A stretch of 64,000 nt of DNA from assembly GCA_002189035.1 (NCBI GenBank), contig NEEC01000017.1, positions 62,001 to 126,000 on the forward strand, in the 5' to 3' direction. Positions 5,200 through 58,042 of this stretch are shown here, in pieces. The DNA is from Utricularia gibba. Its lineage: Eukaryota > Streptophyta > Magnoliopsida > Lamiales > Lentibulariaceae. The notes beneath the pieces are model-generated. The model saw nothing but the letters and a program-made list of their open reading frames with translations. It was not told the DNA's origin and made no database searches. The position numbers were made by a program, and so were the translations under genes. Numbering within the stretch: position 1 is the stretch's first letter; every line of letters starts with the position of its first letter.

Positions 5200-5420
5200 C
5201 CTTGCGACGGCTGTCTGGCATCCGGCGGCGTCCTCTCCTCTGTGTAACGGGCTTGATGTTATAAAACACTGGAGAGTCATATATGGGCTTCACGGATCTT
5301 GTCGTGTGGGGAACACACGTGTACGGTTGTAGACAGTACAGTATTATGATTTTGTTAAGGGGATTTTAATGACAAAATTATCATTTTATTCTTTGAAATT
5401 ACTATGTTTTTCATTTCTTT
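5200..5420. other. Upstream region of the REXO4-like gene
   Basis: This holds the probable promoter and leader of the minus-strand exonuclease gene, then AT-rich sequence up to the Athila-like insertion. The last five bases, TCTTT at 5416-5420, are the left copy of that element's target site duplication. Confidence 0.5.
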
Positions 5421-6560
5421 TGATGTTGATTCTGCAAGTGCACAAAAATCATCGAAGTAATAAAATAAGATCGTATTCATAGGGAATTATTATTAGAATT
5501 CTCTTTTCAAAACAAAGACTTAAAAAAGTTGAAAACAAAAAAAGATTTGGTTTTTGAAAACAATAAGAAAAGTGGATTTGGATCTAAAATCCATCTTACT
5601 TGAAATTCGCCATTTCATATGTGCAAACCTTGAAAACTGACTTGCTTGCGCAAGTTTTGAGGGTGTTATACTACAATATTGCTACTCGGTGACCATTATG
5701 GCACCGTCCCTTGTTTTGTGGGATTATAGAATCAATCACGCCACCAGAGTCATTTCACCTCTTGTGATAACCCATGTTTTCCCCACACCTAAATCTAACC
5801 CCTACACCTCACACCTCGTAGACAGATTAGACAGAATGTGCCTTACCAACGATATCCGATTGAGCCATTCTCCTTAGATGCTAAAAATCATGTTGGTAAA
5901 GAAAACGTTGCGAAAAACAGAATCAGAACTGAAATTAAATGTTAAAAAACATAGTAAGACAGTCACACGCGCAGAACTTGCATAAGCAAGGTTTCACAAC
6001 AGATCCTCAGCCGCAAGCACTCACATGCGCATGTTCGACTCTAAACAACAAAAGTTGATGGAAAACGAAAGTAAAGGAATCCAAAACATGCTAGACTCGA
6101 TTCTAAACCCTAAATTGACTCTCTGGTCATCCACCTTGACTAACTTTTGATCTTCACGTTTGGATCTTTATATAATGGTGGAGACTGATCGGGCTTTCTT
6201 AATGGGCTCACATCAAATCTTCTATTCGGATCTTCTAAGATTTGATACAAATCTTCTAGGATAAGATCCAACTTTTCTAAGATAAAATGCGAATCTTATC
6301 TTATCCGAGAATCTTTGACCGAATGTTCATCCAGATAGACCGAATCTTTGCCTCCATCAAAGTAGCTCGAAAATCCCCCAAATTATGCCAAAATTATCAT
6401 GAAAAATCACAAAACACACTTTCCCTCCAAAAAGATCAAAATTGTATGAAAGATATAAAATTCTTCTAAAAACATAAGAAAAGTAGGATAAAAAGAATGC
6501 AAAACCCATTTAAGTGAGTCTTAAAAAGCAAAAATATAAATGATACAAAATCACTTATCA
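5421..6560 (-). repeat. 3' LTR of the Athila-like element
   Basis: Aligns by eye along its length with 13881-15120. Read on the minus strand it begins TGATAAGTGATTTTG, and its other end on the plus strand is TGATGTTGATTC. It lacks about 60 bases near its left end that the other LTR has, plus a segment equivalent to about 14401-14460. One exact CTTGCGCAAG is at 5645-5654, with a relaxed version CTTGCATAAGCAAG near 5967. Confidence 0.92.
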
Positions 6561-6576
6561 ACTCCCCCACACTTAA
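6561..6576 (-). other. Polypurine tract of the Athila-like element
   Basis: On the minus strand the sequence is TTTAAGTGTGGGGGAG followed by T and then the LTR start TGATAAGTG. This is the usual plus-strand priming site directly upstream of an Athila/Tat 3' LTR. Confidence 0.8.
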
Positions 6577-7904
6577 ATGTTTGCTTGTCCTCAAGCAATT
6601 GTTCAAGGCATTTTCCTTCAAAATAGTAACTTGCAAATATAGTTAAGGCAACAATATGCCTAAGTTGTTCAATGGCATACCATACCCTAGCCCCCCTTGC
6701 ACGTAGCTACTCTTCACATGTGTCACTCAATACGCTCAAGAAGAGAAATCCATAAGAGGGTAAGATTAAAAAGGTTCACTCAATACCTGAATGTAGGCGA
6801 GTCAGTGAACTTGCGCAAGTGATCTACCAGTTTCAGCAGGCTTGTGCAATCATGAGGTCTTTTTTTTTCGGGTTGTAGCGCGCAGGAGATTGAGACAGGT
6901 GGGAAATTCGGTTGGAGGCTTCATTTCATGGGTAATAAGGAGTGAACATCCATCAAACAGTTCTGCCATGCTTGTCCTTTGATTTTCGTACTCCAATAAA
7001 CTCCTCTTTCAGTTTTATGGCTTGTTCCAATCTTTCACTCTCTTTTCTCTCTTCTTCTCATCTTCTTCTTCTCTTTTTCTTTTTTTTTCTTCTCTTTTTT
7101 TTTTTAAATCAACTCTCTTTTGAACAAGATGTTATTGAAAATCCTTTCATAAATTGTTGAGCTAGAGCTTGATCAGTGAATTAAAAATTGCTCTCAACTT
7201 TTCTTCTTTGTAATAGAGCTCCTGGTTCTACAACTTGCGCAAGCAAACGAATAGAACTATTTTCCAGATGCTCATTCCTTGGGTCAAGAGAAATTGATGT
7301 AGGCTATAATTGACAAAACGGATTTGGCTTCTAATGTGGGGATCCAAATAAAAGCTTTTAGGCCAAGCGGGTCTCACTAAGTGGATTCATGGTGGGATAT
7401 TGGGATAAAACAAGGCAAATCCTAGTGCCTCAATCCTTTTGCACAAGACCTGTAGAATAACTCAGCAGTATGCACAAGAACAAGTCTATGATCATTCTAC
7501 ATTCAAGTCACTCATAATGAAAAGAGAATGATCTTCTCACCAAGAAACTAGGGCTATGTAGCTTGCGCAAGGAACACAAAGTAATCAGCATGCCAAGAAA
7601 CAACATAGCAACAAGCATACCAAAATTCTAATTTACAGCAATTATCTCGAAAAAATAATACCAAAAATAGATGTCTAAGTTCCAGCAAAACATAAAATGC
7701 AAGGAGTTGATCAATGAAATATATGCCAAATTTCAAAAAAAAATTTAAAGGTATAAAAAAAACAATCTAAAAAGTAAACTATTCCCCCCACACTTAAATA
7801 ACATCTTGTTCTCAAGATGGGCAGAAACACTTACCTTTCGTCAGGTGCTCTGATGTATCTAATAGTGTGGAATTTTTCATCAAAAGTATCCATTGCACCT
7901 GTGA
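6577..7904 (-). other. Non-coding 3' region between integrase and 3' LTR
   Basis: About 1.3 kb between the integrase tail and the polypurine tract. It has no recognisable frame and no env-like protein, and includes a T/C-rich run near 7020-7105. Exact CTTGCGCAAG copies occur at 6810, 7234 and 7562, so the palindrome is as dense here as in coding parts. A second TTTAAGTGTGGGGGGAAT-like string near 7785-7802 looks like an additional polypurine-like tract. Confidence 0.55.
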
Positions 7905-9349
7905 TTATTGAAGAGAAGGAAGAAAAGAAAAACAATGCAAGAGAAAATCGAAAATAAAATAACTAAAAGGGAAATCGCTTGTTTTTGTGTGGCAAGAAGC
8001 AAACCATAGGTCTTTTTCATGAAGGTGGGGGTGGTTAGAGAGATCCACTGGAACATGCAATGTGTCCATGGAAGATTTTACCCCTTCATGAAACCGTTTC
8101 AATCTCTGAATATTTACTGTAAATTCTCCATGATCAGGATGAGTGATGAGGACTGCTCCACTGCGGTAGATTTTCTTGATGGTGTATGATCCACGCCATC
8201 TGGACTTGAGCTTTCCTGGAAATAAACGAAAACGAGAATTAAATAACAAAACTGTGTCACCTTCTGCCAAGCCTTCGTTTGTTCCTTGTACAGTTTTGCA
8301 TTTTCGTAGGCACTCATCCTTAGCTCGTCCAACTCTTGGAGTTGCAAGATCCTTTGCTCTTCAGTAGCCTTGGCATCCAAATTTAATTCTTTGATAGCCT
8401 AATATGCCTTTTGCTCTAATTCCACAGGCAAGTGACAAGCTTTCCCATAAACCAAACGATAAGGGGAGGTCCCTTAGGGAGTCTTATACGCTGTGCGATA
8501 AGCCCATAAAGCATCAGTTAATTTGATTGCCCAATCCTTGCAGGTTTTGCCCACCGTACGCTCCAGAATCCCGTTCAATTCCCTGTTAGTTACCTCCACT
8601 TGTCCGTAGGTTTGTGGGTGATATGGGGTTGATGCCCTGTGTCCTACTCCATACTTGCGCAAGAGCTTCCGGAATTCTCTTTCAATGAATTGTTTTCCTC
8701 CATCACTTATGACATATCTTGGCGCACCAAACCTGGGTAGAATGATCTTTTCGAAGAGCTTAATTACAGCTCTTGTATCAGCTGCTGGAACCACGATAGC
8801 TTCTGCCTATTTTGAGACATAATCCACCACCACAAGAATTTGAGTGTTGCCATATGAAGATGGAAAGGGTCCCATAAAATCCAGCCCCCAAACATCGAAA
8901 ATTTCCACCTCCAGGATATATGTCATGGGTCCTTCATCTCTCCTGAAAATAAAACCCGCATGCTGACATGGTTCGCATGCTTGAACAAATGCCCTCACAT
9001 CATGATTCATGGTGGGCCAATAAAATCCAAATTCAAGAATTTTGAAGAGTGTTTTTGATGCTGCTAGATGCCCTCTATATGGTGATGAATGGTAATGCCA
9101 AATAACATCCCTTACCTCCTCTGGTGGTAGGCATCTTCTGATAATCCCATTAGCACAACGTTTGAAAAGCAGAGGTTCTTCCCAGAAATAATGCCTCGCT
9201 TGCGCAAGGAAGCGCCTCCGCTGGTTGAAGTTTAGATTCTGGGGCAAGACTCCTCCAACGAGATAATTGACAAAATCATCATACCATGGTAGATTGCCGT
9301 CTTGGATAACAAGGATACGTTCTGTGGGGAAAGAATCATTAATGGGCAA
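7905..9349 (-). pseudogene. Integrase of the Athila-like element, broken
   Basis: The zinc-binding HHCC region is visible in the 9349-8807 frame (HYHSSPYRGH then CEPC), followed by the core with GLDFMGPFPSS, ISDGG and the VEVTNRE glutamate, so D, D and E are present. A stop replaces the Trp expected after DYVSK at about 8807, another follows AYKTP at about 8474, and a further stop lies near 8400. The C-terminal part (8270-8080) keeps NSRFRLFPGKLKSRWRG. Palindromes at 8654 (coding LRK) and 9199 (coding LAQ) lie inside the frame. Confidence 0.88.
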
Positions 9350-9369
9350 CTCCCCACACTTGTTTCAAG

Positions 9370-10185
9370 CTATAGGCATGACAAATGATCAGCTACTCCA
9401 TTTTCCTTGCCCTTCTTGTCACGAATTTCAAAATCAAATTCTTGGAGAAGTAGTATCCATCTTATCAACCTGGGTTTCGATTCCTGCTTGCTCAAAAGAT
9501 ATTTTAAGGCAGCATGATCCGTGTGAACAATTACCTTTGCACTCAGCAAGTAGGACTTGAATTTTTCAATGGCAAACACAATTGCCAGCAACTCCTTTTT
9601 TGTGGTTTTGTAGTTCATTTAGGCTATATTGAGAGTTTTGTTGGCATAATAAATCACATGAATTACCTTGTCTTTTTTCTGTCCAAGAACAGCCCCTACA
9701 GCACAATCACTTGCATCACACATCAGTTCAAATGGCAAGGTCCAATCTGGTGGTTGAAGAATGAGTTCAGTGATAAGAGCTTGCTTCAGCGTGTTGAAGT
9801 CATGCACACATTCTGCATCAAAACAAAAATTCGTGTCTTGTGCAAGTAGCGCTGTTAGTGAGCGAGAAATGTGAGAAAAATTAACCATAAATCTCCTATA
9901 AAATCCTACATGCCCCACGAAGATTTTGATCCCTTTTACCGTAGTTGGTGCTGGTAATTTTTCAATCACCTCGATTTTTGCTGGATCTACTTGAATGCCT
10001 TTAGAAGAAATGTGATGTCCAAGCACAATGCCTTCTTCAATCATAAAATGACATTTCTCCCAATTGAGTACCAAGTTGCACTCAATACACCTTTCCAAAA
10101 TGATGCCTAAGTACTGCAAACATGAATCTAAATCAGTCCCATAAATAGATATATCATTCATAAATACCTCGATGATCTTCTCCAC
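9370..10185 (-). pseudogene. Reverse transcriptase C-terminal part and RNase H, broken
   Basis: 10185-9619 holds the end of the RT palm and the connection, including FMND where this lineage has FMDD, then GHHISSKGIQVDPAKI and FVGHVGFYRRF. 9618-9370 holds RNase H with the [13 protein letters not shown] glutamate, [10 protein letters not shown] aspartate and [13 protein letters not shown] stop near 9619 separates them. The N for D change at the first of the paired catalytic aspartates (codon AAT in place of GAT, at about 10156-10158) should abolish polymerisation. Confidence 0.9.
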
Positions 10186-10206
10186 GTGTTCTGAAAAAAA
10201 TGACTG

Positions 10207-11529
10207 TCATGCATGTTGAAGAGTTCTAGGAGCATTGCACAAACTGAATGGCATTCTCTTGTATGCAAAGGTGCCAAAAGGACAAGTAAATGTGGTCTTG
10301 TGTTGATCTTCCGAATGAATTGGAATCTGAAAATATCTGAAATAACCATCAAGGAAACAATAGAAAGCTTGGTTACTTAACCTTTCCAGAATTTGATCAA
10401 TAAATGGCAATGGGTAATGATCCTTTCTAGTGGCATCATTGACTTTCCGAAAATCTATACACATCCTCCAGCCAGTGACCTTGCGCAAGGGGATGAGGTC
10501 TCCCTTCTCGTTTTGTGTCACTGTCATGCCTCCTTTTTTTGGTACGTAGTGTATTGGGCTAACCCATTGGCTATATGAAATAGAGTAGATGATCTCAGCA
10601 TCTAGTAATTTTAGAATTTTTTTTTTAATCACCTCCTTTAGCATAGGATTTGCCTGCCTTTGTGGTTGCACAATTGGTCTTGCCTCAGCTTCCAAATAAA
10701 TCCGATGAGTGCAGAATTGAGGGTGAAGCCCTTTCAAGTCATCCAAGGTGTACCCAATGGTTTGTCGGCGCTTGCGCAAGACATCCAGCAGCATTTGGGT
10801 GTGGTATTCACTCAATCCTGCGTTCACAATCACTGGGTAAGTGTGATATTCCTCAAGAAATTCGTACCTCAATGATGGTGGCAGCTTCTTCAACTCAATT
10901 TTGCTTCCAGCATCAAGTTCCTTCTTTGTTAGTGGAGCCATCATTGGTGTGTCATCTGGAGTGTCTTCTTTTTCATCCTGCAGAAGATTTACATCCTGAA
11001 TTTCATGCAAAAAAACTGCTTGTGCATGCTCCTGCATAACAGCATCTTTCGCTTCCCCTTGCGCAAGCTCGTCACAGTCAAATCGTTTCATTGCGTGATC
11101 AACATTGAACTCCAGTTCTTCTTCTCCGAATCTGAGTGTCAATTTCCCTATTCTAAAATCAATGAAGGCTCCTGTGGTTGCCATAAAGGGTCTCCCAAAA
11201 ATAATTGGTACCTCCACATCAAGTGCCATATCCAAAACAACAAAATCACAAGAAACAAAATATTTTCCAATTTTTACCGGCACGTTTTCTACTACGCCTT
11301 CAGGATTCTTCATAGATTTATCAGCAAATACCAGCTGAATTTTTGTGGTTCTCAGCTCCTCAAGATTCAATGCTTTGAATAAAGAATAAGACATCAAGCT
11401 GATACTTGACCCAATATCATACAAGCACTTCTCAAAATTGCTTCTTCCAATGATACAAGGGACTGAAAAAATTCCAGAATTTGCATGCTTTTGAATCAGC
11501 CCATCACATCTGTGAATGGAATTTCGCAT
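10207..11529 (-). pseudogene. Aspartic protease and N-terminal reverse transcriptase
   Basis: One 440-codon open frame. The protease active site is YDIGSSISLM, a D-x-G-S version of the D-L-G-A seen in relatives, followed by ILGRPF-like IIFGRPFMAT. The RT part has VTGWRMCIDFRKVN, FLDGYFRYFQI (the usual G is R) and PFSLCNAP (the usual G is S). A frame break separates it from the catalytic FMND segment. Palindromes at 10480, 10771 and 11058 are in frame, coding LRK, LRK and LAQ. Confidence 0.88.
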
Positions 11530-13283
11530 AAGTGGGCATTTGCAACATCACATCAGTGAATGGAATGTTCACATGGAGAGTTTTCAGCATCTCCAGAAAC
11601 TTGGAATATTGTTGATCCACTGACGATTTGACATGTCTCTGTGGATAAGGGATTAGAGGATTATAAAAAGGTGGAGATATGTATACTAGAACATCCAGCA
11701 ATTCGTCTGCTTGCACAGGGGCTGCTATTGCACTCTGCATTCCACTCCTCGTTGCCACAGCTTTGCATTCAGCATGATTTTTCTCTGGCTGAATTGGGAG
11801 CCTTGAAGCCTTGTGGGTTTGAGCAACATTATTCATCCGACTGTCTAGAATGCGAGTTGTTATCCCGAGTTGCTCTAGACGCTCATTCATTTCATTCACC
11901 CTTGTCTTTTGGTCTGAAATTTCTCCTCTTATTTGCTTAAGTTGTTCAGCCACCAATCCATTTACTTGTTTGATTTGCTCCAGCATTCCTTGGTTAAGCC
12001 CTTCCTGTTTCTCCATGAATTGATTGAGCGTATCTCGTAAGAATGGTCGTTGGGGCTGCTGCTGGTTCTGATTCTGGTTCTGCCAAGTGTTGCCTCGATT
12101 TCCCCAATTGTTCCCTTGCGCAGGCATAGAAGCTCCTTGCACAAGTTTTCCCTGAAAAATTCACAAAATTAACATTCTTACCTTCCTCTTCTGGCTCACT
12201 CTCTATCTTCTCTGAGGCTGCTTGGACTTGAGCAATGACAGGCTGGAGTTTGCTGATTTTATCGTCTAATTTTTGCAATGTTTCGGAAATCTTTGAGACG
12301 GTAGTGTCACATGGGTTGTCCCGAACTCCAGTTTTCAAATTCCTTACTGGTTGAGACCATCGTGCCTGTCGTTTTGCAAACTCATCAATTAGTTCCCAAG
12401 CTCTTCTAGGACTTACCTGGTCTAGGGGTCCAACACCCGCATTCAACAGTCCCTTTGCTTGCACAGTGAGTCCATCATGAAAGCACATGATCATAGCAGC
12501 GGGGCTGAGTCCATGCTTAATCGTGACTTGTGTAATTTCCTTAAATCTCTCCCAAGCTGCTGCTATTCCTTCTCCTTCATCCTGTGAAAAATTGGTGATC
12601 TCAAACCTGGTGTTCGAGTACTTCGTGGGTTCAAAATATTTGTCCAAAAATGCATCCTCCAATTCTTGCCAAGTGTAAATAGAGTTGGGTGGCAAAGAGT
12701 CTAACCACCTCCTTGCTAATTCCCATAACGAAAATGGAAATAAACTTTACTTGATCGCATCGTCAGAGACTCCTCGTTCCACCACCATGTCACAATACCT
12801 GAGAAAAATTACAATGTGTTCTTCGGGAGCCTCTCCAGGTTCTCCATGAAATGGGCTTTGTTGCACCATGGTGATCAATGAAGGCTAGAGTTGGAATCTT
12901 CACACGTTGATGGCTGGTGCTGAAAATGGACCAAGCTTCCTCATGTGTCAAAAATTATCACCTAGAGGAACTTCATCCTAAGGATCAACAGCAAATCTGT
13001 TAGCATTCTGCTCCCTGCGCACGTACCTGTCTTTTCCTGGGCGATGATTTCTGGCTTGTGCAGGTTGTTCCCTGCGTGCTGGTTCTGGTCCTTCCTCTTT
13101 GCTAGATGCTTCTTCAGTACACACATTCCTCTTGGGTATCTGCCTTTGTCTTTCATGATTTTCCCTTTCAGGATTTCCTATAAATTCATACCTCTGCTCG
13201 TGATGAGGATTTTGGTTGTCACGTCGGTTTGATCCATTGTAACCCCAATGGTCTTCTCCTTCCCACCTTGGAGGAGAGTTCAC
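11504..13283 (-). pseudogene. Gag of the Athila-like element, broken
   Basis: The N-terminal part is charged (13283-12978). After stops near 12977 and 12950-12890 the retrotransposon gag core follows: SLFPFSLWELARRWLDSL then TWQELEDAFLDKYFEPTKY and AAWERFKEITQ (12760-12540). A frameshift near 12140 leads to a Q-rich coiled-coil-like part and the conserved IPYPQR and QYSKFLEMLKTLHVNIPF segment before the protease. Several stops fit C-to-T decay. Relaxed palindromes (CTTGCACAAG, CTTGCGCAGG) lie at 12115-12144. Confidence 0.85.
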
Positions 13284-13867
13284 TCCTCGCCTTGGAGTTC
13301 GTGGGTTGCTGTTCTGCTCATCATGATGTTGAGGTTCAAAAGCCTTGTTTTCCTACCATCCTTGCACAAATGTTGATTGCCAACGGTTTTCATTTGTGCC
13401 TGCGTGCCTAGGCCTTCCTAAACCACGTTCCAGCACCCTGTTGGTTCGTCCTGGGCCTGATAATGCGCCTGTGGGCCCTTCTCGGAGAGGTTCCATGCCT
13501 CGATTTCTTCCCAATCTTGCTGTTGTTCGTTCTTGTGCAGGCTATTGATCAGATCCATCGCTACGCCTTCGATATACCCCTACACAATTAGTAGTCGATC
13601 TGCATATACCTGTTCTTTCATTTGTCATCAAGGCTGATCTAGTGGCCCTATTTGGCTGGTGTCTGGGCGTTCGTGCTCGTTCGCTATCTGGTTCGGACAT
13701 CACCAGATAGCCCTCCTCATGTCTAGAATGCCTTCTAGACAGGTTTCCCTGCATTGTGCTTGCGCTTGACGATTTTCCAACCTACTTCTTTGACAGGTCT
13801 GGTCAATTTGTAGGTCTAGCGGGTACAGCTCGGTTGAAGCCTTGTGCTTGCGCATGCAACACTCATT
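13284..13867 (-). other. 5' leader of the Athila-like element
   Basis: The sequence between gag and the 5' LTR has no convincing frame of its own. It contains several decayed versions of the palindrome, such as CTTGCACAAA near 13365, CTTGTGCAGG near 13533, CTTGCGCTTG near 13759 and CTTGCGCATG near 13848. Confidence 0.5.
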
Positions 13868-13880
13868 AAAAGCAACGGCT
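13868..13880 (-). other. Remnant of a tRNA-Asp-type primer binding site
   Basis: On the plus strand AAAAGCAACGGC directly precedes the LTR and matches the inner part of the complement of a TGGCGCCGTTGCC-type site used by Athila/Tat elements. The GCGCCA end next to the LTR is missing, so the site looks partly deleted. The match is short. Confidence 0.45.
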
Positions 13881-15120
13881 TGCGCAAGTGCACTAAATAG
13901 AATGTCTCAAAAATAAAAGAAAAATAAGAAATAATCATAAAAGAAATTCCAAAGGAATACATAGAAATCGTCGAAATAATAAAATAAGATCGTATCCACA
14001 GGGAATTGTTATTGGAATTCTCTATTCAAAACAAAGACTTAAAAGAGGTTGAAAACAAAAGAAAGATTTGGTTTTTGAAAACAATAAGAAAAATGGCCTT
14101 GGATCTAAGATCCATCCTACTTGAAACTCGCCCTTTCGTGTGTGCAAACCTTGAGAACTGACCTGCTTATGTAAGCTTTGGGGTGTGATGCTAAAATAGT
14201 GCTACTCGGTGACCGTTATGACACCGTCCCTTGTTTTGTGAGATTATGGAATCAACCACGCCACCAGAGCCATTTCACCTCTTGTGATAATCCATGTTTT
14301 CCCCACACCCAAATCTAACCCCTACACCTCACACCTCGTAGATAGATTAGACAAAATGTGCCTTACCAACGATGTTCGATTGAGCCCTTCTCCTTAGATG
14401 CTTGAGGCCAACCTTTAATTCTCCCATACTCCCTTAGAGCTATATGGTACTAAAGATCACGTTGGTAAAGAAAACGTTGCGAAAAACAGAATCAGAACTC
14501 AAATTAAATGCTAAAAAACATAGTAACACAGTCACATGCACAGAACTTGCGTAAGCAAGGCTTCACAACAGATCCTCAGCCGCAAGCGCTCACACGCGTA
14601 TGCTCGACTCTAAACAACAAAAGTTCATGGAAAACGAAAGCAAAGGAATCCAAAACATGCTAGACTCGACTCTAAACCCTAAATTGACTCTCTAGTCATC
14701 CACCTTGACTAACTTCTTTGATCTTCGCGTTTGGATCTTTATATAATCTGGGAAATTGTCGAGCTTTTTTAATGGGCTCACATCAAATCTTCTATTCGGA
14801 TCTTCTAAGATTTGATACAAATCTTCTAGGATAAGATCCAACTTTTCTAAGATAAAATACGAATCTTATCTTATCCGAGAATCTTTAACCGAGTCTTCAT
14901 CTGGATAGACCGAATCTTTGCCTCAACTCGAAAATCCTCCAAATTATTACAAATTCGTCCTGAAAAATCAAAAAACACACTTTATCTCCAAAAAGATCAA
15001 AGTGATATGAAAGATATAAATTCTTCTAAAAACATAAGGAAAGTGGGATAAAAAGAATACAAAATCAATCTAGGTGAGTCTCAAAAATCACAAATATAAA
15101 TGACATAAAATCAATTATCA
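13881..15120 (-). repeat. 5' LTR of the Athila-like element
   Basis: Partner of 5421-6560, slightly longer because it keeps two segments lost from the other copy. Its right end ATCAATTATCA is followed by TCTTT, the right target duplication. An exact CTTGCGCAAG overlaps its left border at 13879-13888. The 5645 palindrome corresponds here to CTTATGTAAG near 14165. Confidence 0.9.
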
Positions 15121-15125
15121 TCTTT

Positions 15126-28980: not shown

Positions 28981-31035
28981 ATGAGCTGCCGATGGATTTC
29001 CCTGTGGCTTCTCACCTCTGCCTTGTTCCTTACTTCATGCGGTTCCGTTTCCCTGGGATCGGTCGCCCTGCCGCGCCACCACCTTGAGAGTAATAATAGA
29101 AGTAGTAGCTGCGACCAAACGTACGGATTCATGCCGTGTACCTCCACCCTGATCGGAAATCTGTTTTTGATTTTGGTCTACGGTTACTTTATGTACCTAG
29201 CCGCAACCTTTCTCTCCTCTGGCAGTGAGCTCTTACTTGAAATCCTCGGCCCCGGAATTGTGGGCGGTCTTTTCCTCCCAATTCTCGGTGCCCTTCCCGA
29301 CGCCATGCTTGTCCTTGGTACAATACATACAAACACCCGTTTGCTATTTAGTCCTTGGTACCAAACAAACTTGTTGTAACTTGTCATGCTCTCCTTGCTT
29401 CAGTTTCTGGGCTTTCCGGGAGCAGGGAAATTGCTCAAAGCCAGGTCTCTGTAGGAATGGGACTTCTTGCTGGATCTACCGTGATGCTACTCACTGTAAT
29501 ATGGGGTACCTGTGTTATAGTTGGCAAGTGTAATATCCACGACAATGTTGCCGTTGACTCTCAGGACACCAATGGCTTCAGCTTAACTGGTTTTCTCGTA
29601 CTTCCGTGCTTTCCTTTTTACCTCTTTTTCTGGTATAATCTGGGATTCTCCTAATCATGCAGGCTCTGGCGTTAGTACTGACGTGTGGACGCGGTATGCA
29701 GCCATGATCATGGCGGTGTCTTTGATCCCATTTCTTGTTGTCCAACTACCGCAACTTTTGCGTTCGAACTCTGGAAGACATTTGGCTGTCTTGATCGCTC
29801 TTCTTGTTTCTCTTACGCTTCTTGTGGCATACTGTGTTTACCAGATTTTCCAGCCATGGATTCAGAGAAGACGACTTGCTTATGCCAAGCATAAGCATTT
29901 GATATCTGGCATACTCAAGCATTTCAAAATGCGCAGCCTAGGGAAGCTTTTAACTGCAGATGGAAAGCCTAACCGAGAAGTTCTTCTAAAGTAAGTTCTT
30001 TGTTCTTGCTTGTGGGTCCCCCAATTGGAATTGTCTTCCAGTTCTGACAGTTATCTTCTGATATTGACCATGGAAGGCTCTTCGAAACCATTGATGAGGA
30101 TGAAGATGGATACCTGTCACACTCGGAGTTACGAGCTCTGATCGTTGGAATTGAGCTTGAGAAGATGAATTTCGACTGTGATGATGCTGTAGAGAAGGTG
30201 ATGAAGGATTTTGATGTCACCCTCGACAGTAGAGTTGACTCAGAAGAGTTCATTGCTGGAGTTGGAAAGTGGCTTGGTGAGGCCAAGGGTAGAAGAGTTC
30301 ATACTGATTCCATGGAGTACATAGATGAATTTCACAGGGTATTGAGTTACCACCCCTGTTGTTACGCTGTGCGACATGAATCATTCTCACACTTGCTTTT
30401 GCAGCAAACAAGGAGAGATCATGATCGGCTGGGAGCACAGGCTGATGAAGAAACTGAAGGCATCCAGAATCCACGGTGGTATATAACAAAAGCTGTAATT
30501 CTACTGATTCTTGGATCAGCCATCGCAGCTGCATTTGCAGAGCCTTTAGTTGATGCAGTTCATAATTTCTCTGTCGCTTCAAAGATTCCCACCTTCTTCA
30601 TATCTTTTATTGCTCTTCCACTGGCCACTAACTCAAGTGAAGCAGTTTCCGCTATTATCTTTGCAAGTAGGAAGAAGCTGAGGACCGCATCCCTGACATT
30701 TTCAGAGGTAAGCAGAATGACTCTGCTAGCAACTTATATCCCACGCTTACTAACTCGGACTGAGTCTAGACAACTCGCTGGTGCAGTTGTATGGAGCGGT
30801 CACCATGAACAACGTCCTCTGCCTTTCAGTTTTCCTTGCTCTCGTCTACACCCGTGGATTGAAATGGAATTTCTCATCAGAAGTGCTCGTCATCCTCATT
30901 GTCTGCATCGTCATGGGGGCGCTGGCAAGTTCTCGGACAACTTTCCCTCTCTGGAGTTGCTCAGTATCTTTTTTCTTATACCCATTTTCTCTCGGACTTG
31001 TTTACCTTCTTGACTATCACTTCGGATGGTCTTGA
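28981..31035 (+). CDS. NCL: NCL-like Na+/Ca2+ exchanger, two-EF-hand type
   Basis: Six exons with GT-AG borders: 28981-29317, 29404-29589, 29663-29990, 30077-30338, 30405-30707 and 30787-31035. They join to 1665 bases, 554 residues. The protein has a signal peptide, N-terminal membrane spans with the alpha-1 repeat GALPDAMLVL and GMGLLAGSTVMLL, and a cytosolic linker QPWIQRRRLAYAKHKH. Two EF-hand loops follow (DEDEDGYLSHSE and DVTLDSRVDSEE), then C-terminal spans with the alpha-2 repeat PLATNSSEAVSAI. The EAVSAI glutamate is retained. The order and length match Arabidopsis NCL (At1g53210). An upstream ATG at 28897 exists in frame, but 28981 starts a clear signal peptide. This copy appears intact and is a tandem paralogue of the gene upstream. 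Family members exchange Na+ for Ca2+ at internal membranes. Confidence 0.92.
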
Positions 31036-31252
31036 ACGGTTTAGTCCTCTGATACTAGGTTCCAGTTTCTTTCACCATCAGAGTTTGGCACATAAGAATT
31101 GCTAAACAGTAAAAACCGAAATCATCAAACAACAAGCTTCAAAATTAAAGAAAACATTCAGCCACATGATTGATTACAAAGAGCCACAAAGTAGACAAAG
31201 GTGCTAACTTGCACCCCATCTCATCGGGAGAACAGAAACGAAAGCTATCAAT

Positions 31253-31944
31253 CTAAAACAGCCTTCTTTTCCTTATCTTGAAACTGGATGAGCGAATCAC
31301 ATTGTCGTCTGCTAGAAGTGTTTCTGTAAGAAGGGAAATGGACTCAGGTTTGGTGAAATAGGTGAAGAGAAGATATATACCATCCAAGTAGGTGTTGCTT
31401 TCTCCAGCCTTGTTCTTCTTCCTGATGCCGTAGGCAAGAGGGATCACCCCCCTATTGAAAACCTCCACATACATTCCTCCACCAGCGATTAGCAACTGAA
31501 TCACTTAACACCCAACATTAGGAATCATTAGCGAATCTCAAATAAAGGAAAGATTTTTTTTACCTCTTCATACTTCTGGGTTAACGAAAGACGCTCGTCT
31601 TCAGACATGTCGGGCCTTAGAACCATCATCGTTTCGTACTTCCGGAGGCCAGGGGGACATGGTGGCTCCTCTTGCTTATCGTCCAATTCCGGAAAGTCGG
31701 CAGCAGAAATCTGCGAATCCCGCGACTCACTACTTCCTTCCAAATCTCTTTCGAAGAGCCCTATGTCAAATTCTGCTTTCACAGACAGCGCCGTTCCCCT
31801 AGAGCTTTCTCCTTTTCTTGATCTGAACATCAAAATTCTCCGAGGGCTACAGAATGTGCAGGGGGACGCTAGCAGGAGCGAAGACGGGCGAGGCTGTTGG
31901 GATGGGAAAAGTGGCTTCGCGACCGCAAGAGCGTTGGACGCCAT
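31253..31944 (-). CDS. RPS6: Chloroplast 30S ribosomal protein bS6 (S6 alpha)
   Basis: Two exons, 31564-31944 and 31253-31495, give 207 residues. The first 60 or so residues are Ser/Arg/Pro-rich with few acids (MASNALAVAKPLFPSQQPRP), a chloroplast transit peptide. An acidic linker is followed by the S6 fold: RKYETMMVLRPDMSEDE, then in exon 2 MYVEVFNRGVIPLAYGIRKK and YLLFTYFTKPESISLLTETL. The product is the nuclear-encoded bS6 of the plastid small subunit, which sits by S18. Its 3' end converges with the NCL gene at 31035. The length matches the usual plant form. Confidence 0.92.
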
Positions 31945-33182
31945 GGATGCTATCGCACTTCACCAGCAGCTACCCTGATTCCGATTAGATAGGGACGGAA
32001 GAAACGGTGGTTTGGAGGATGCGCTTTACAGGCCCTCAAAAGCGACTTCAGTATATTAGTTTTTTGGAATTAAAAAATAAACAAGGCGGCAGTGGGTAAA
32101 TTGAGTGCAAAAGCACAACCCAGCGCTAGACCTGGGTAAGGATGTTTCAGCATTTTGGTGTCATGATTCAGACTCCAAATGTCACTGCTAAACATATACA
32201 TGGAAGATCCATGAGGGTACTTTAAGCTTGCATATGTTATTTTCATTTGATATTTAAAGCAACGTGAGTAGAAGAATGGATATTTAATTTAATTTGTAAG
32301 GATTTGAGACCTTACAAACTTGGTGAGGAAGATAGGCATTCAGACTCACAAAGTTGCACCAACCTGATGATTGAGGATTATGCTATGTTCTAACACAAAG
32401 GAAACACATAGAAAGTCATGATCCACAAAACATGAGTATGCTGGTCAAAAAATAAAAATCCATTATGGTTAGAGAGTCACATTGGATTTAAAAAAAAAAG
32501 TGTCAAGAAAGAAGCCTAAGGTTTCTTCTCCATAGGAGTCCCATTAGACTCAAGGAATTTATTCGAGAGAGAAGTCTCTTAATATTTAGATGGTGTTTGA
32601 TAATTGATTTAAGATTTTAAGTATATGATTTAAGATAAAATATATTTTTATGAATTTAGAGATGTTATATTTTGTAATGAAAATATGGTTAGATTGTAAT
32701 TTTAAATAATTGGTTTTATACCTATTTTGAAATGAAAAAGAAAAAAAGATAGATTAGTAATAAATATGGGGTTTAATATTAAGCATACTATCTTCCTGAT
32801 TTTCAATAAAGATATATATGTCATTTTAATTATCTATTTTAAAATAAATCAAAACCAATGATTTATTTATAGCTTCATACTAAACCTATATCTTAAAATA
32901 ATGAGAAAATTTCAAATTTACCATTAATGTTTACTCTAAAATTCATTTTTGTCTTTAAAAATATTGAAAAACTGGTTCAATTAAAAAACCGTTCATTAAT
33001 TAAATAAAAATAATGGCCTCCATGAACATTAGGGTTTAGAGACCTCGTGTAAATCAAAACTCCCGCTTGGTTGTAAACTAATTCATCTCTCTCAACAAAT
33101 GAGTGACGACAATTCAAGGAAACAAGAGAGACAAGGTGGGTATTTAGTCACCAAAAGAGATGAAAACATTGAATAGTGTGTT
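31945..33182. other. AT-rich intergenic region before the MULE
   Basis: No gene is seen. The first 100 bases are the likely bS6 promoter. 32585-32890 has weakly matching inverted ends (GGTGTTTGATAATTG at the left and CATACTAAACCTATA at the right) and could be a small non-autonomous element. The MULE start must lie near 33000-33180, but its terminal repeat could not be defined. Confidence 0.4.
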
Positions 33183-34975
33183 TTGAGACTACATTATGGT
33201 GGTGGGCTCGATTCTTCTACCCAAAAGTATGTCAACGTCTCTGAAAAATTGTTGGAAATTGGGTATGTTTCAGAATTTTCGTATGAATTCTTATTTGGAG
33301 TAGTTTCAATTCTTGGTATAAGTGAAAACTTTCGTGTATTTTTTAAGTATTCGAGTGATTTACAGAATGAAATACATGAGTTGAGCAAGAATGATGATTT
33401 TAACTTAATAAGACACTTGCTTCTTCAGCTTGACCATGTTGATATTTTCATTGATTCAGGTTTTGCTAGGAGAGATCTGACTTTAGTTTGTGAGGCTGAA
33501 TTTGGTAGAGTCTCAACACTGGAGAGTGAAATGGATGGTCGTGACATTCGTATAGAGATGAGTAAAGATTCTGAAAATTGGGCAAGCTTGGATGATCTTG
33601 TACTTGTTGAAAATATTGCTGAAAGTCAAAAAAAATGTTTCAGAAATTCTTGTTGAAAATGATGAAAAGGTTGTTGAAGTTGATGCTTGTTTTTTCATGG
33701 ACAATGTTAATGAAAGTGGCATTGGAAATGGTTCTAAAGAAAGTGAAGATAAATCTATTTGTGACTCTCACTGCAGTGATGAAGAATTTTGGTGTGAAGA
33801 AGATCATGATTTTACAAGAAAGGATGAGGTTTTTAAGAAGTGTGTAGATCCATGTGTAGAATCTAGAATTAATGCTGAAAATATTGTGAGTGTTTATAAG
33901 AGCTTGAGAGATAATATTCGTTTTGAAGGTAATATGGATGATATAGACTCAAGTTTTGATTTGAGAAGTCTCCAAGAGTTGGATGAAGAAGAAATAAGCA
34001 AGACTTCTCTTTATAATCCTAAGAGTGATGCTGAAGATCCCAGTTTGGTTAACGACTTGGTTTTTAACTCTAAAGAAGAAGCAAGATTTTCCATTCATAC
34101 ATATGGAATGAAACATGGCAAAGATTTGGTGTTTCACATTGACAACAAAAGAGTGATTGCAACATGTAGAGCCAATGGATGTCCATGGTGCACCTATGTT
34201 TCCAAAACAAAAAATGACAAAGGTTGGCTCATAAAAAGTTTCAATAATGACCATCAAGGATGTGCTAGAAGCAGAGTAAATATTGGTTTAAGAAGCAACT
34301 ATCTAGCAAAGAAAAATTTACGAACTGAAATTTCGAAATCAAAGGCCTTTAGAGCAAGGAAAAAAGCATTATATATTTTGAACAAGACTGATTCTGAACA
34401 ATGGAGTTTGATTCGATATTATGTTGTTGAGCTATTAAGATCAAATCTTGGGTCTACAGTGCATTTGCAGCTCTCTAATTCTGAGAAACCAGAATACAAG
34501 AGATTCAAGAGCTTGTATGTTTGCTTGGCCACTTTAAAAGAAAACTTTAAATCCGGTTGTAGGAAAGTTGTGGGAGTTGACAGATGTTTTCTTAAAGGAG
34601 GCTTTAATGGCCAATTACTAACTGCTGTTGTAATAGATGCTAATAATGGAATTTTTCCGATAGCATATGCGGCTGTAGAAATTGAAAAATCAATGGAGTT
34701 GGAAGGAGTTTCTTGAAGTACTTAAGGAAGATCTTGAGGTTGTAGATGAACTTGAATGGACATTTATTTCTGACAAACAAAAGGGGTTGTTGGAGGCTTT
34801 TGAACAATTGATGCCACATGTTGAAAATAGGTTTTGTGTTAGACACTTGCACTCTAACCTGAAGACTGCTGGTCACAATGGCATTAAACTAAAAAATCTT
34901 CTTTGAGCAGCTGCAAGAGCAATGAAACCTGAGGTTTTTGCTGCACATATGGAGGAGCTGAAAAAAACAGACTTA
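33183..34975 (+). pseudogene. MULE (Mutator-like) transposase, 5' part
   Basis: The frame opens with a MULE-type N-terminus (LHYGGG...YVSEFSYEFLFGVV), then an acidic linker, then the WRKY-GCM1-type zinc finger (ATCRANGCPWC and NNDHQGC at about 34155-34265). The MULE transposase core follows, with VVGVDRCFLKGGFNG (first Asp) and FISDKQKGLLEA (second Asp). Breaks: a frameshift at the A-run near 33630, another near 34686, and a TGA in place of a Trp codon at about 34904. The frame is then interrupted at 34975 by a chain of Harbinger-type insertions and resumes at 41607. Confidence 0.88.
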
Positions 34976-35965
34976 GGGCGCGTTTGATTGCTGGGTTGCG
35001 GCATGGGTTGCGGCGTGGGTTGCGGCGTGGGTTTAGACATAAACCCACGTTTGGTTCGTGGGTTTCAAGTAGATAAAAATAAACCCACCTTTTGACCATA
35101 AACAAGGCGGGAACCCATGGAGCTGGGTTTAGCTAAACCCAAGGGGGGGGGGGTCGGTTTAGCTAAACCCAGCTCGGCGCTTCCATTTTTGCCGTCACGT
35201 GAACCATATTTGAACGTAGATTTATCAGAAACCAGATGCACAGATCTATTTACCAATTTTTTTGAATGTTAAAATTCCTACATATCTGTAGCATATTTAT
35301 TCAGATCTATAACAGATTTGTTCAGATCTGTAACAGATTTGTTCAGATCTGTTCAAATCTGTTGAAGAAGAAGAAGAAGAAGAAGAAAAAGAAGAAGAAG
35401 AAAAAGAAGAAGAAGAAGAGAAATAAGAAGAAGAAGAGAAAGAACAAGAAGAAGAAAATAAAGAAGAAAAAGATGAAAACAAAGAAAAAGATAAAGATAA
35501 AAATAATAACAACATGTCTAATATTCTGGGTTTTCATTTTTGGTGCTGAATGTGAGTTTTCGTTTTGAAGACGAGCACTGCGTCTATTATTATCCGGTGC
35601 TTGCTGTAAATGTGAATTTTCGTTTTGAAGACAAGCACCGTGTCTATTATTACTCAGTGCTTGTTATAAAATAAAATTTCAACTAAGCATCGTAATTTAT
35701 GCTATGCAGTGCTCGATTGAACTTATAAAATGATATAGAAAAATAAAATATATGATAATTTATTTTAATTAATCAAAAGGGTATATTGGTAATTTCATAT
35801 GAAAATCATTACAAACCCAATTTTAAACCCACGTACCAAACGTGTATTCATCCTAAACACATCAACCAAACACGGATTACACCCTTTAAACCCATGAAAT
35901 CGGGTTATCTAAACCCAAATAAACTAAACCTGGGTTTAAACCAAACCCAGCAACCAAATGCGCCC
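34976..35965. mobile_element. Harbinger-type non-autonomous element (MITE A)
   Basis: 990 bp with terminal inverted repeats GGGCGCGTTTGATTGCTGGG at the left and, reverse-complemented from the right, GGGCGCATTTGGTTGCTGGG. Both sides are flanked by TTA, the target duplication of PIF/Harbinger elements. It encodes no recognisable protein; the lysine-rich open frame in the middle comes from the GAA repeat. Confidence 0.88.
35362..35500 (+). repeat. GAA/AAG microsatellite
   Basis: About 140 bases of near-perfect GAA repeats with A-run interruptions, all purine on the plus strand. It lies inside MITE A. Confidence 0.93.
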
Positions 35966-35968
35966 TTA

Positions 35969-36136
35969 GAGTCTGTTTGGTACAGCTTCTGCTTCAGTAG
36001 AAGCACTTCTAGAAGCTGAAATAATGAAGTGCTTCAATTTTTTTAGAAGCTGGGGTACCCTTGCTCCAAAAAAAACTGAAGCGCTTCTAGAATCACTTCT
36101 TTGAAGTTGTTTTTTGAAGCAATACCAAATAGACCC
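35969..36136. mobile_element. Small Harbinger-type MITE (MITE B)
   Basis: 168 bp with ends GAGTCTGTTTGGTA and, reverse-complemented, GGGTCTATTTGGTA. TTA lies on each side (35966-35968 and 36137-36139) and is shared with its neighbours A and C. The interior is rich in AGAAGC/GCTTCT words that form short palindromes. Confidence 0.87.
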
Positions 36137-36429
36137 TTAGAGCCTGTTTGGAACCGTTTCTAAAATTAACTTAAAAAAAAGTGATTCTGTAGAAGTACTT
36201 TTTTTGAAGCAATTTGTGTTTGGTCCATCAACTCCAAACAGATAAAAACAAAACGTGTTTGGTATAATTTGCTTCATATGTAGTTTTTTTTTTGTATTGA
36301 TATTACTAATATACCCTTAATGAATTTTTTTTCAATTACTCTCTTAAATTCATACCTACCTCTACTACTACATACACTTGTTTTTCATCTTCTTGATTTC
36401 TTTTGTTCACGAATGACAATACACATCCA

Positions 36430-37879
36430 TGGCTTTTGAGATGGAGTATTCATTGTCTCCTTTGAAGTCATACATGGATGATGATCAATCTGCAAGAAGA
36501 AATAAAGAAGTTTAAAAAATGGTGGTTAGTGTTGTATCTTTGATTGGTAGTTATTATGCTAATCGGGTGCATAAATTTCCATGTAAGAATAGGAAGTTTA
36601 CGGGTGTAGAATTGTTGAAGGAGATGTTAGAAGGCAATCCAATTAAGTGTTATGATAAGTTAAGGATGAGAACTCATGTTTTTTATCAACTTTGTGAATT
36701 ATTGAGTGAGTCTAATGGGTTGAAACCTATTGGGGGTGTCTCCATTCGGTAACAACTTGCTCACTTTTTTCAATATGTTGGCCAAGGTCACAATCAACGT
36801 CATCTTGCAAAAGAGTATCAACATTCAAGTATGATGTTTTTTAGTTTTGTATCATCTATGTTTTTTTGCTAATATACTTTTGTATGGTAATGTTGTGTTT
36901 TGCATAATACCGTAGCATGGACAATCCATAGATCGATACGTGCAGTTCTTAAAGCTTGTTTGAAGATGTCTAAAGATTGGATTTGTTTATTTCGACCTCA
37001 CAATGTTACTCCTCCAAAGATCCAATTTGACGATCGATACTCACGTTATTTTAAGGTTGTATATCTTATATATTAGTCTATCCATTCTCTTAATTTATTG
37101 ACTAATCATTATTGGATGATTTTTTACACTTTAGGATTGCATTGGAGCCATAGATGGTACCCACATTGATGCAATTCTGCCACCAAAAAAGCAAATTCCA
37201 TTTATCGAAAGGAAGGGGAAACCAACACAAAACATATTGGCTGCTTGCGATTTTAATTTATGTTTCACTTTTGTGGCTGCTAGTTGGGAAGGGGCAGCAC
37301 ATGATTCACGTGTGTTATGTGCTGCCATTAATGATCAAAATTCTACGTTTCAAATGCCATCCCAAGGTGCTTACTCATAGTTGTTTAATGTGTTAATTCA
37401 AATGTGTTACTCATCATTATTCACTGATCTTGTTTTGTATTAGGAAAGTACTACCTCGTTGACTCTGGTTATGCAAATAGGAATGGGTTTATGGCCCCAT
37501 ACAGGAGGGAGAGATATCATCTTCCAGATTTTCATCGAAATCCATCTATCAGAGATGGAAAGGAATTATTCAATTTCAAGCATTCATCCTTGAGATGCGC
37601 AATTGAAAGATCATTTGGAATTTGGAAGAAGAAATTCAAGCTAGTGACTGCTTCCCTTCTCCATTGGCTTGGAAGATACAAATTAGGCTTGTAATTGTGA
37701 CGATAGCACTGCACAATTACATTAGAATTATGAACAATGATGACCCACATTTCTTAGAAGAAGTGCAAGAATATGATTCACAAGATCCACTGATTGATTC
37801 GGAAGGTGCAGGGGACAATGACATGGATGCCATAAGAGACTCTATTAGGGTGAAAATGGAAGCAGATAGACATTTATGA
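36430..37879 (+). pseudogene. PIF/Harbinger DDE transposase (HARBI1-like), broken
   Basis: The N-terminal DUF8040-type segment is at 36519-36752 and ends in a stop (R then TAA where a Glu-Gln is usual). The DDE_Tnp_4 core is at 37130-37690: CIGAIDGTHI with the first Asp, AAHDSRVL, YYLVDSGYAN with the second Asp, and IERSFGIWKKKF with the Glu. Introns separate the core pieces (for example 37060-37135 and 37370-37443). A frameshift near 37660 moves the C-terminus (VTIALHNYIR...) to another frame, ending at 37879. Confidence 0.88.
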
Positions 37880-37984
37880 ATGTTTGATTTGACAGTTAAC
37901 TATAATTCAGTGTGATTAGTATATATTTGGAAGAAGTCGAGCACATGGACGTGGGTTATGTACAAACAACACCCATGTGTATCT

Positions 37985-38330
37985 CACATTAGCTCCCACT
38001 TCTCTTATATGGGTGTCTCGGAAGTAGTATTTGAGACAGTTTTCCAGGCACCCACTTCCCTCATGTGGGTGTCTCAAGAGAGTGTCTGGAAAGAGAGTTG
38101 GACGGCACCTACAAAACAATACATTGTGCGGGTGTCCGAGAAGAGTGTGTAAGACCATTTCCAGGCACCCACTTCCCTCATGTGGATGCCTCGGAGGGTG
38201 TTTGGAAAGGGATATGTGAAACAGTTTTCCAGACACCCACTTCCTTCATGTGGGTGCCTCGGGAGGGTGTTTGTGAGTCTGCAACCAAATTCCAGGCACC
38301 CACCTTTGCTCATGTGGGTGCCTGGAACCG
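37985..38330. repeat. Degenerate repeats with palindromic CACCCAC/GTGGGTG cores
   Basis: At least four related units, with cores near 38049, 38166, 38235 and 38297, each of the form GGCACCCACTTCC then CATGTGGGTGCC. Each core can fold on itself, and spacing is irregular (about 60-120 bases). They lie between the transposase and the Myb gene of the Harbinger element. Confidence 0.78.
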
Positions 38331-38493
38331 AATATATCCAAACGTTTCGATATGAACTGTGGTTCCGGTTTGAACTGAACCCACCTTTACCCATGTGTAT
38401 CCTGTATTAATGCTATCTATGAAATAAGTAATTTTGTAGAAATCCAATACACGAACATAGGTTATGCATAAACCATGCTTGTGTGTATCTCAC

Positions 38494-38589
38494 ATTAATG
38501 ACACCTACGAAATAAGTAATATGTTAGGAGTCCAACACATTTGTGTATTGGACTCCTACCAAATTACTTATTTCGCAGGTAGCATTAAT
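38494..38589. repeat. Long imperfect hairpin
   Basis: Two arms of about 45 bases face each other around TTTG. The left reads ATTAATGACACCTACGAAAT and the right, reverse-complemented, starts ATTAATGCTACCTGCGAAAT. Both continue through AAGTAAT and GGAGTCCAA. It lies just downstream of the converging Myb gene and may mark the boundary between the two Harbinger genes. Confidence 0.85.
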
Positions 38590-38731
38590 ATAAAATATGT
38601 TAAAACAGAATAACAAAAATTCAGAAAATATGATAACGTCCAACTCATTATTTTGTCTTTAACACAACAACCTCAAATCTAAATGAAATAGACAACATCA
38701 AGATAATCTACTTTTGCAAATAACACCAACT

Positions 38732-39734
38732 TTATGGGACATTCTTCCCCATTTTGTGGCAATGAATTTGATAATCATATTTGAGATAAGCTACTCTTGC
38801 ATCATCATTTTTTGCCAATAACCAAAGATCGCGCTTGGTTTCTGATGCAAACATCGCCATGGCATGTACATATATCTCATCACCAAATGTTATGCCACTG
38901 CAGTTGTCCAAAAAGTCGAAACAGGTTTTTATTTCAGCCTTTTCATGGTCTACAAGACACTGCTCCCGTGAAGGTCCAACAGCTTCTGCCACCTTTTCCA
39001 ATGCCTGAGCAATTATGTTGCTGTCATTTGTCCTAGCACACTTTCTTGTGCTTGTTAGTGCTTTTCGCACCGGTGTTCATATGCTAGATTGACAACCTAT
39101 CAACCATATGGAGAGTTCTGAACTTGTGTAGCAACTTGATAGCCTTCAATATTATCTTGAATGTCATTTGCATCTTCAAAAGAAGGCGATGAGTGTTGTC
39201 CACCTGTCGAATAATGCACTGATTCTCCTATGACTAAGATATCACTAAACATTACCTCTTGCTCTTCTAAAAAAATTGGTATTGCATTCTTATAATAACG
39301 TGCAGCTTTGTTATCCTACAAGTATATAATATCACTTACGATGAAACATTGCAGAAACATAAAAAAACAAGCATTTGTATTATAAAAAATTGAATCTTGA
39401 AACAAATATAATGTACCTTTAAGTAGTCACTCCGGAAGGAATCAGGCATATCTACAACACCATTAGGCTTAAATCCAATTCCGGTTTGCTTCGTCAATTT
39501 AACCCATACATCCCAAGCTTTTTTCATCTTATCCCATTTGTTTTTCAATTGAGCTCGAGAATAATTCTTACCTGTCAAAGAATTAAAATTCCTAACCACA
39601 TTCTCCCATCCCAATCTATTGAAGTGGCTGTTCGGTCTATTTCCCGCATGGACCTCTGTTGTACAAACTCGAATAAAGGTCTCTACCAGGTTAGGATCAA
39701 CCCATCTTGCTTGTGAGCTATCTCCTCCTTCCAT
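38732..39734 (-). pseudogene. Myb/SANT-like protein of the Harbinger element
   Basis: Exon 1 (39418-39734) starts MEGGDSSQARW and has the trihelix-like Myb/SANT pattern: GNRPNSHFNRLGWENVVRNF, then QLKNKWDKMKKAWDVWVKL and TGIGFKPNGVVDMPDSF. The second exon region continues below 39316 with NKAARYYKNAIPIFLEEQEVM. Stops near 39100 and frame changes lead to a last segment (39070-38732) with CFDFLDNCSGITFGDEIYVHA. In PIF/Harbinger elements this protein partners the transposase in DNA binding and nuclear import. It appears inactive here. Confidence 0.82.
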
Positions 39735-41554: not shown

Positions 41555-41606
41555 CACTTCTAAAAGCGATTTTTTTGAAGCTGAAGCTGCATCAAACAGA
41601 CCCTTA

Positions 41607-53845: not shown

Positions 53846-54473
53846 ATGGATGAAATCAAGGAGATGCTAGTCAATATGATGATTGACTTCAAAAAAGACG
53901 TTCTTGCAGATCTCAAGAACCAGTTGAACACTAAGCTATCAGAACTAGAAATCTGAGTAGAAAAGGCAGAATCAGTGGTTGAGAGTTCTCAAATGGGAGC
54001 AAAACCTAGTATGGGAAATCTCAAACTCGTTGAAAGGCATAGCACAAGATTCGTTTATTTCGTTGAAGCAAAATCAACCAAAAATTACATAGTCGGACTT
54101 GAAGACCTACTACAATCTACAATTTGGACCAAGGAATCGAGCCTCTAACACGGCGAGATTGGAAAAATTACATATGGGAAGTGATTTGGAAGACTATCAT
54201 GCTCAATTCTTAGCGGTGGTCATTACAGTAAAGGATTTTACACCTGAAAATGAAATGCAGATTTATTTAAGTGGGTTACCAGAAGAATTTCCTAGCCAGA
54301 TTTCTTTACAACATCCAAGCAGCACAATGGATGCCATGAGCTTCGCATTAATGCTTCATAAGGGAGAAAGAGGAGGTCCTAAAATCAGCAGCAAATCTGA
54401 ACCGTGGAGAGGAAAGCAAATCAAGGCCTTGAGAAAAAGAGAGAACTTCAGATTGCCACCAAGAAGACAATGA
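53846..54473 (+). pseudogene. Chromovirus gag, broken
   Basis: Starts MDEIKEMLVNMM, just after the primer site, with a stop at about 53954. The capsid-like part is at 54099-54400: LEKLHMGSDLEDYHAQFLAV and IYLSGLPEEFPSQISLQHPS. The zinc knuckle CFHCDEKFVPRHKC follows in the next frame at about 54528-54570. Frameshifts separate the parts. Confidence 0.85.
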
Positions 54474-56850: not shown

Positions 56851-56880
56851 TTAAGTAAGTATGCTCATTTCATACCACTA

Positions 56881-58037: not shown

Positions 58038-58042
58038 CACTA

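Follow-up and report, generated by a model that had tools for sequence, protein, structure and literature searches.

Why would a single retrotransposon carry one ten-base palindrome at ten places, within its genes as well as outside them? The question is raised by a stretch of 64,000 nucleotides from the genome of Utricularia gibba (assembly GCA_002189035.1, contig NEEC01000017.1, positions 62,001 to 126,000), here called the window, which contains a Ty3-type long terminal repeat (LTR) retrotransposon. The perfect 10-bp palindrome CTTGCGCAAG, referred to below as the decamer, occurs ten times exactly in the window, and all ten copies lie inside this one element. An initial annotation, made from the sequence alone, had given the same ten starts (Table 1) and had seen no exact copy elsewhere; a scan of the whole 64 kb reproduced both statements. 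At a little under an even chance, we interpret the decamer as a dispersed recognition site of a retroelement family, maintained by selection acting on the nucleic acid itself, most likely for a homodimeric DNA-binding protein that would dock along the body of the element and its LTRs.

The excess over chance held against shuffled controls, with a mean of 0.02 decamers per window in 100 dinucleotide shuffles versus the ten observed, and the order-1 Markov expectation for the element is 0.007. The octamer TTGCGCAA has ten copies in the window; every one of them sits inside a decamer, and the outer C and G therefore belong to the motif. Allowing up to two mismatches gives 29 decamer matches in the element, of which ten are the exact ones, versus 17 in the other 54.3 kb. 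No second palindromic decamer is present more than once in the element, and no 8-mer there is equally enriched, low-complexity words and overlapping or decayed words aside. Five exact sites fall within coding DNA (8654, 9199, 10480, 10771, and 11058), and the exact sites are at least 287 bases apart. Most of the region labels given earlier stand, except that 11058 (residues 161–163) and 10771 (residues 257–259) sit between the protease match (residues 40–128) and the RT_1 match (residues 357–443) of the open reading frame (ORF) at 10207–11547. The relaxed copy CTTGTGCAAG at 9837 had been placed correctly, while CTTGCACAAG starts at 12136 and not at 12135.

Across the 100.09-Mb genome the decamer is present in 491 copies versus 22 for a reversed control. 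Twenty further stretches were read around sites from the 50 places listed of these 491, mostly single sites without prior explanation, and 16 of them belonged to the retroelement family and four did not. The listed places cover ~11.5 Mb, across which the control rate gives ~2.5 sites; the four non-family sites are therefore near chance, and these readings do not support a motif of the host genome. Several of the listed site pairs are ~380 bases apart, which is the LTR spacing. The equal density in the host genome that the initial annotation had named as the result to count against it was thus not observed, and the excess belongs to the element family rather than to the genome at large.

The window element is a Ty3-type LTR retrotransposon with two LTRs, a 5-bp target duplication, and gag, protease, reverse transcriptase (RT), RNase H and integrase in Ty3 order, although its protease matches score below the Pfam cut-off. 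The borders 5421 and 15120 drawn earlier are correct, as TCTTT is present at both ends. The element is probably Athila/Tat-like; the homologues listed with an organism name were all from plants. It is an old copy, because its reading frames are split and its LTRs are only ~86% identical. The genome contains at least 46 matches to its pol DNA (best 40 of 87 candidates scored) and at least 44 to its LTR (best 40 of 467 candidates scored). Around the interior border of the 5′ LTR (13950–13965), ~49 extra bases are present in L002, L040, L055 and L056 and absent from the window copy.

When the decamer was counted in relatives of the element within the genome, as the initial annotation had proposed, all ten window sites recurred exactly in at least one other copy. 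The sites at 9837 and 12136 and the second LTR site are mutated in the window and exact in other copies, and some decamer sites are exact in relatives of 70–80% identity. This distribution indicates that the sites are ancestral to the family and did not spread recently copy by copy. Copies of one site are therefore not independent; what counts as independent is how many different positions there are. Flanking information did not exceed 0.20 bit at any position across 20 exact contexts, in which the ten decamer bases are equal by choice; half of these contexts come from the window and half from other copies or the partner family described below. One pair of these contexts, the integrase C-terminal site of L021 and a similar site in the partner, appears homologous by eye, which leaves ~19 different positions. 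The stretch with the integrase C-terminal site is missing in the window; L021 is longer by ~31 bases at this point, with similar short words on either side. Two loci of a sister lineage, L032 and L034 (3,733 bases each), contain no decamer even with one mismatch and no other enriched word comparable to it.

Further positions are provided by a partner family. Loci L002–L004 and L040 combine the family LTR with a different interior of ~2 kb, which shows a single short gag-like match (E 1.7e-5) and weak similarity to the integrase end, and the partner family has 41 genome matches. Four ORF pieces from the partner gave no Pfam match above the cut-off (two weak ones at E 0.15 and 0.066), and one such piece gave no match in the PDB. 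In L004 (893–2879), L085 and L088 the interior is a long broken reading region, parts of which we take to be coiled-coil-like and integrase C-terminus-like. Decamers are located in L004 at 1252, 1501, 1873, 2211 and 2623, three exact and two decayed, and the corresponding five places in L085 and L088 hold exact or CpG-decayed decamers or forms with one additional base change. By eye, 1501 appears to correspond to 12136 and 2211 to the integrase C-terminal site; no counterpart of 1252, 1873 or 2623 was seen in the window element. These comparisons indicate that a non-autonomous partner with a largely different interior has decamer sites of its own.

The manner in which the sites arose can be judged from coding DNA. 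The initial annotation had considered insertion as a unit, and the alignments do not support it at 9199, 9837, 10480 and 10771. At 10480 no family copy has a decamer-sized gap (small indels lie beside the site in L010, L017 and L025/L029), and the motif-free loci L032 and L034 align there without gaps. Plant homologues have residues at the decamer columns of 9199, 9837, 10480 and 10771, with one gapped row in 120 each at 9199 and 10771. At 10480, where the element reads LRK, 120 plant homologues show TRT (51), TRL (26), SRT (12), TRI (12) and others, and LRK in none. LAQ was found in one of 120 homologues at 9199, and the third residue at 9837 is K in 101 and Q in 14 of 120. The place of 8654 was located by a simple pattern in 16 of 360 homologues, none of which has LRK, and at 11058 two of the three residues are gapped in 116 of 120. 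The alignments thus indicate that the decamer replaced existing bases at those coding sites that can be judged, whereas 11058 falls in a homologue gap and may be an insertion. That the sites are an ordinary conserved part of the coding sequence of the lineage, the other outcome envisaged earlier, is true within the family; in comparison with homologues from plants, 10480 and 9199 have unusual residues and 10771 has ordinary ones.

Codon choice and base conservation both point to selection. In synonymous-codon shuffles of six ORF segments the mean was 0.055 decamers and the maximum two in 5,000 shuffles, versus four observed. The decamer codons are used by all three LAQ triplets and, among the three LRK triplets, by two; in one case the CpG is decayed. 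In four relatives of 70–80% identity, all eight outer bases were kept at 9 of 15 aligned sites versus 2.25 expected (P = 0.0002), and within the family the divergence of the outer bases was 2.3% versus 5.2% (P about 0.01; seven sites versus 2,341 windows, with matched window choice). Both conservation tests, like the CpG-decay counts given below, exclude L015 (a near-twin of L014) and the overlapping loci L026, L029 and L033; both conservation tests also exclude the window copy, and the within-family test L014 as well. Selection at the nucleic-acid level, one of the options offered by the initial annotation, is on these grounds the best reading.

A dimeric DNA-binding protein fits the motif because it is a perfect 10-bp palindrome with free flanks that occurs in coding DNA, non-coding DNA and LTRs alike. 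We infer a protein as the ligand, DNA as its target, and also its function: a putative homodimeric, sequence-specific binder would dock on decamers at many points along the element, LTRs included, and docking would likely mark the element as a whole or protect it, in a VANC-like logic of anti-silencing or activation. VANC belongs with the VANDAL elements of Arabidopsis, which are DNA transposons. Comparisons with this and other known systems rest on excerpts of the cited papers. There, VANC proteins are described to bind short motifs in VANDAL elements and to cause methylation loss throughout them (PMC5735166, PMC10398659). The motifs, YAGTATTAY and AGTTGTCC/AC, occur in non-coding regions and often in tandem repeats, and VANC is encoded by the element itself (PMC5735166, PMC10398659). 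In both cases, as far as these excerpts go, a short motif is present many times in certain transposon families, whereas the present case concerns an LTR element and a perfect palindrome, usually with hundreds of bases between sites, and no regulatory-like extra protein was seen among the ORFs scanned.

Several observations weigh against recognition by a DNA-binding protein. No protein that binds the decamer is known or was found. The concentration in non-coding tandem repeats that, in the excerpts, characterizes VANC motifs is not seen here, half of the exact sites being coding. The conservation tests involve few sites and related copies, with coding constraint that varies by place, and all DNA copies compared come from this one genome. 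Among the diverged relatives, L025 (~75% identity) has one exact and two decayed sites in 3,696 bases, and L028 (~70% identity) has no exact and one decayed site in 3,667 bases. In addition, the CpGs of the sites show no protection from methylation decay in present copies, LTR sites included: seven interior sites retained CG in 71 of 107 cells (66%) versus 950 of 1,320 (72%) for 92 other CpG columns (P = 0.22), and the two LTR sites keep CG at 0.85 and 0.82, within the range of 0.37–0.97 of 33 other LTR columns. As site CpGs are retained like those of other columns, the TG/CA forms reflect ordinary decay, and the decamers of these copies are unshielded. The earlier explanation of these forms as CpG decay was confirmed by other copies, which are exact at the same places. 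Between 6500 and 8000, the terminal part of the integrase ORF aside, no ORF exceeds 73 amino acids; these are damaged copies, and a trans-acting protein is possible.

A further-reaching version of protein recognition is possible though doubtful. The decamers might form a whole-length address code, one exact 10-bp palindrome every few hundred bases in its genes and control regions, for which even enzyme residues were changed, by which a trans-acting factor would tell the element from the host and which the partner would share.

Among the rival explanations, a function at the RNA level is the strongest, and we consider it improbable rather than negligible. The self-complementary decamer would pair or fold genomic RNAs or dock Gag, in dimerization or packaging, and its predicted self-pairing energy is −15.3 kcal/mol. 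Palindromes of Ty1 were likewise suggested for RNA dimers and as protein binding sites, according to the excerpt (PMC4974528). These PAL sequences are also short palindromes in an LTR retrotransposon; in the excerpt they belong to a cis-acting region near the 5′ end (PMC4974528), whereas the decamers run through the whole element and its LTRs and are not confined to a 5′ region of the RNA. Moreover, their flanks have no shared sequence, and folding predictions gave no common structural context, with a predicted unpaired value of 0.388 at the sites versus 0.418 for 1,076 GC-matched decamers.

Spread by mutation or conversion without selection, through short template switching between copies or biased repair, would account for the recurrence of one exact sequence at many positions whose flanks are free to differ, and a repair-based model of this kind exists for HIP1 (PMC4390886, excerpt). 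HIP1 resembles the present case in that a single exact palindrome is dense, with 1000 to 2000 copies per million bases there and ten in 9.7 kb here; it is, according to the excerpt, genome-wide and tied to DNA methyltransferases in cyanobacteria (PMC4390886), whereas the decamer is concentrated in one plant retroelement family. The sites are, however, better conserved than other 10-mers, and the non-family sites among those read occur at about the control rate, so that we regard such spread as quite unlikely. We are also unaware of any process that would convert ten bases and leave their flanks unchanged.

Chance with common descent, by which a few accidental sites were copied with the family, finds some support in that most counts are of inherited sites and that LRK at 10771 is ordinary (29 of 120 homologues). 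Descent explains copies of one site but neither some twenty positions with one decamer nor the codon choice, and chance is disfavored by both the window and the synonymous-codon shuffles, which makes this explanation very unlikely. Least credible of all is a preferred insertion target with new copies landing in old ones, for although some family copies appear nested, none of seven target sites resembles the decamer (the window and six LTR loci with duplications matching at four or five of five bases; the six remain from ten loci with both LTR ends identified, after exclusion of L035, L038 and L040, where the borders are internal to full elements, and of L063, which lacks a matching duplication).

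The core TTGCGCAA is also that of C/EBP-type bZIP sites of animal factors. The eight bases are the same; the outer C/G pair is not part of the consensus as we know it, and the factors are from animals. A literature search for this core with plant terms returned no plant factor by title, and among papers containing the decamer string none had a transposon title. No description of such a retrotransposon motif was found in titles and the beginnings of abstracts, subscription papers being mostly outside the search. The decamer thus appears to be a new form of dispersed transposon recognition motif, with a mechanism that we infer. Motif-based recognition is known from the non-coding repeats of VANDALs, whereas an LTR retrotransposon here seems to pay a price in coding sequence, for a decamer that seems to have been kept while relatives diverged to 70–80% identity. 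As the decamer is short and exact and this small genome has many copies of it, a reader protein could be fished for directly, which would reveal how an entire transposon is recognized.

Table 1 Features of the retroelement and decamer sites (positions in the window)
Feature	Position	Strand	Basis or remark
LTR retroelement body	5421–15120	coding strand minus	TCTTT flanking both ends
Target-site duplication TCTTT, left	5416–5420		flank comparison
3′ LTR	5421–6560	−	direct repeat with 13960–15123; ends and flanking TCTTT
Exact decamer, LTR	5645–5654		exact string scan
Exact decamer, 3′ non-coding	6810–6819		exact string scan
Exact decamer, 3′ non-coding	7234–7243		exact string scan
Exact decamer, 3′ non-coding	7562–7571		exact string scan
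Exact decamer, integrase core, read LRK	8654–8663		string scan, alignment of copies
Integrase zinc-binding part	8807–9364	−	ORF and Pfam match
Exact decamer, integrase, read LAQ	9199–9208		string scan, homologue alignment
C-terminal RT and RNase H	9619–10206	−	ORF and Pfam match
CpG-decayed decamer, RNase H, read LAQ	9837–9846		exact in other copies
Protease and N-terminal RT	10207–11547	−	ORF and Pfam match
Exact decamer, RT, read LRK	10480–10489		plant homologues: TRT and similar
Exact decamer, upstream of RT_1, read LRK	10771–10780		string scan, homologue alignment
Exact decamer, protease–RT linker, read LAQ	11058–11067		string scan, homologue alignment
Near-site	11710–11719		exact in L016
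gag (Retrotrans_gag)	11994–12746	−	ORF and Pfam match
Near-site	12115–12124		exact in L031
CpG-decayed decamer in gag	12136–12145		exact in L006, L009, L018, L025
Exact decamer, 5′ leader	13879–13888		exact string scan
5′ LTR	13962–15120	−	inner end uncertain: ~49 bp of other copies missing in window
Mutated LTR site, counterpart of 5645	14166–14175		exact in other LTR loci
Mutated LTR site, counterpart of 5977	14546–14555		exact in other LTR loci
Target-site duplication TCTTT, right	15121–15125		flank comparison

No even spacing was found for the ten exact sites (P = 0.51). Even spacing was seen in sets picked afterwards (P = 0.0006 for 21 sites and near-sites; P = 0.0003 for the interior twelve and P = 0.003 with 12115 included), which we do not rely on given this post hoc choice and the placement of the integrase C-terminal site at 8290, the deletion being nearer 8273. 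Some close pairs lie near whole helix turns, namely 12115/12136 and L085:1826/1847 (21 bases each), 6810/6841 (31 bases) and 13847/13879 (32 bases), with 11019/11058 (39 bases) as a counter-case; the pairs are too few for a test. A second palindrome, GAAGCGCTTC, adjoins the 9199 site at 9209–9218 and is present in many copies and mutated in the window; its 13 occurrences among the first 64 loci presumably all derive from this place.

Elsewhere in the window, ORFs at 54401–58830 resemble another Ty3-type element on the plus strand, in which the window scan found no exact decamer, and ORFs at 33177–34716 and 41430–42089 resemble what we take to be pieces of MULE-type transposases. The word TAAACCCA occurs 11 times at 29101–38800 versus 0.43 expected, perhaps as a local tandem array.

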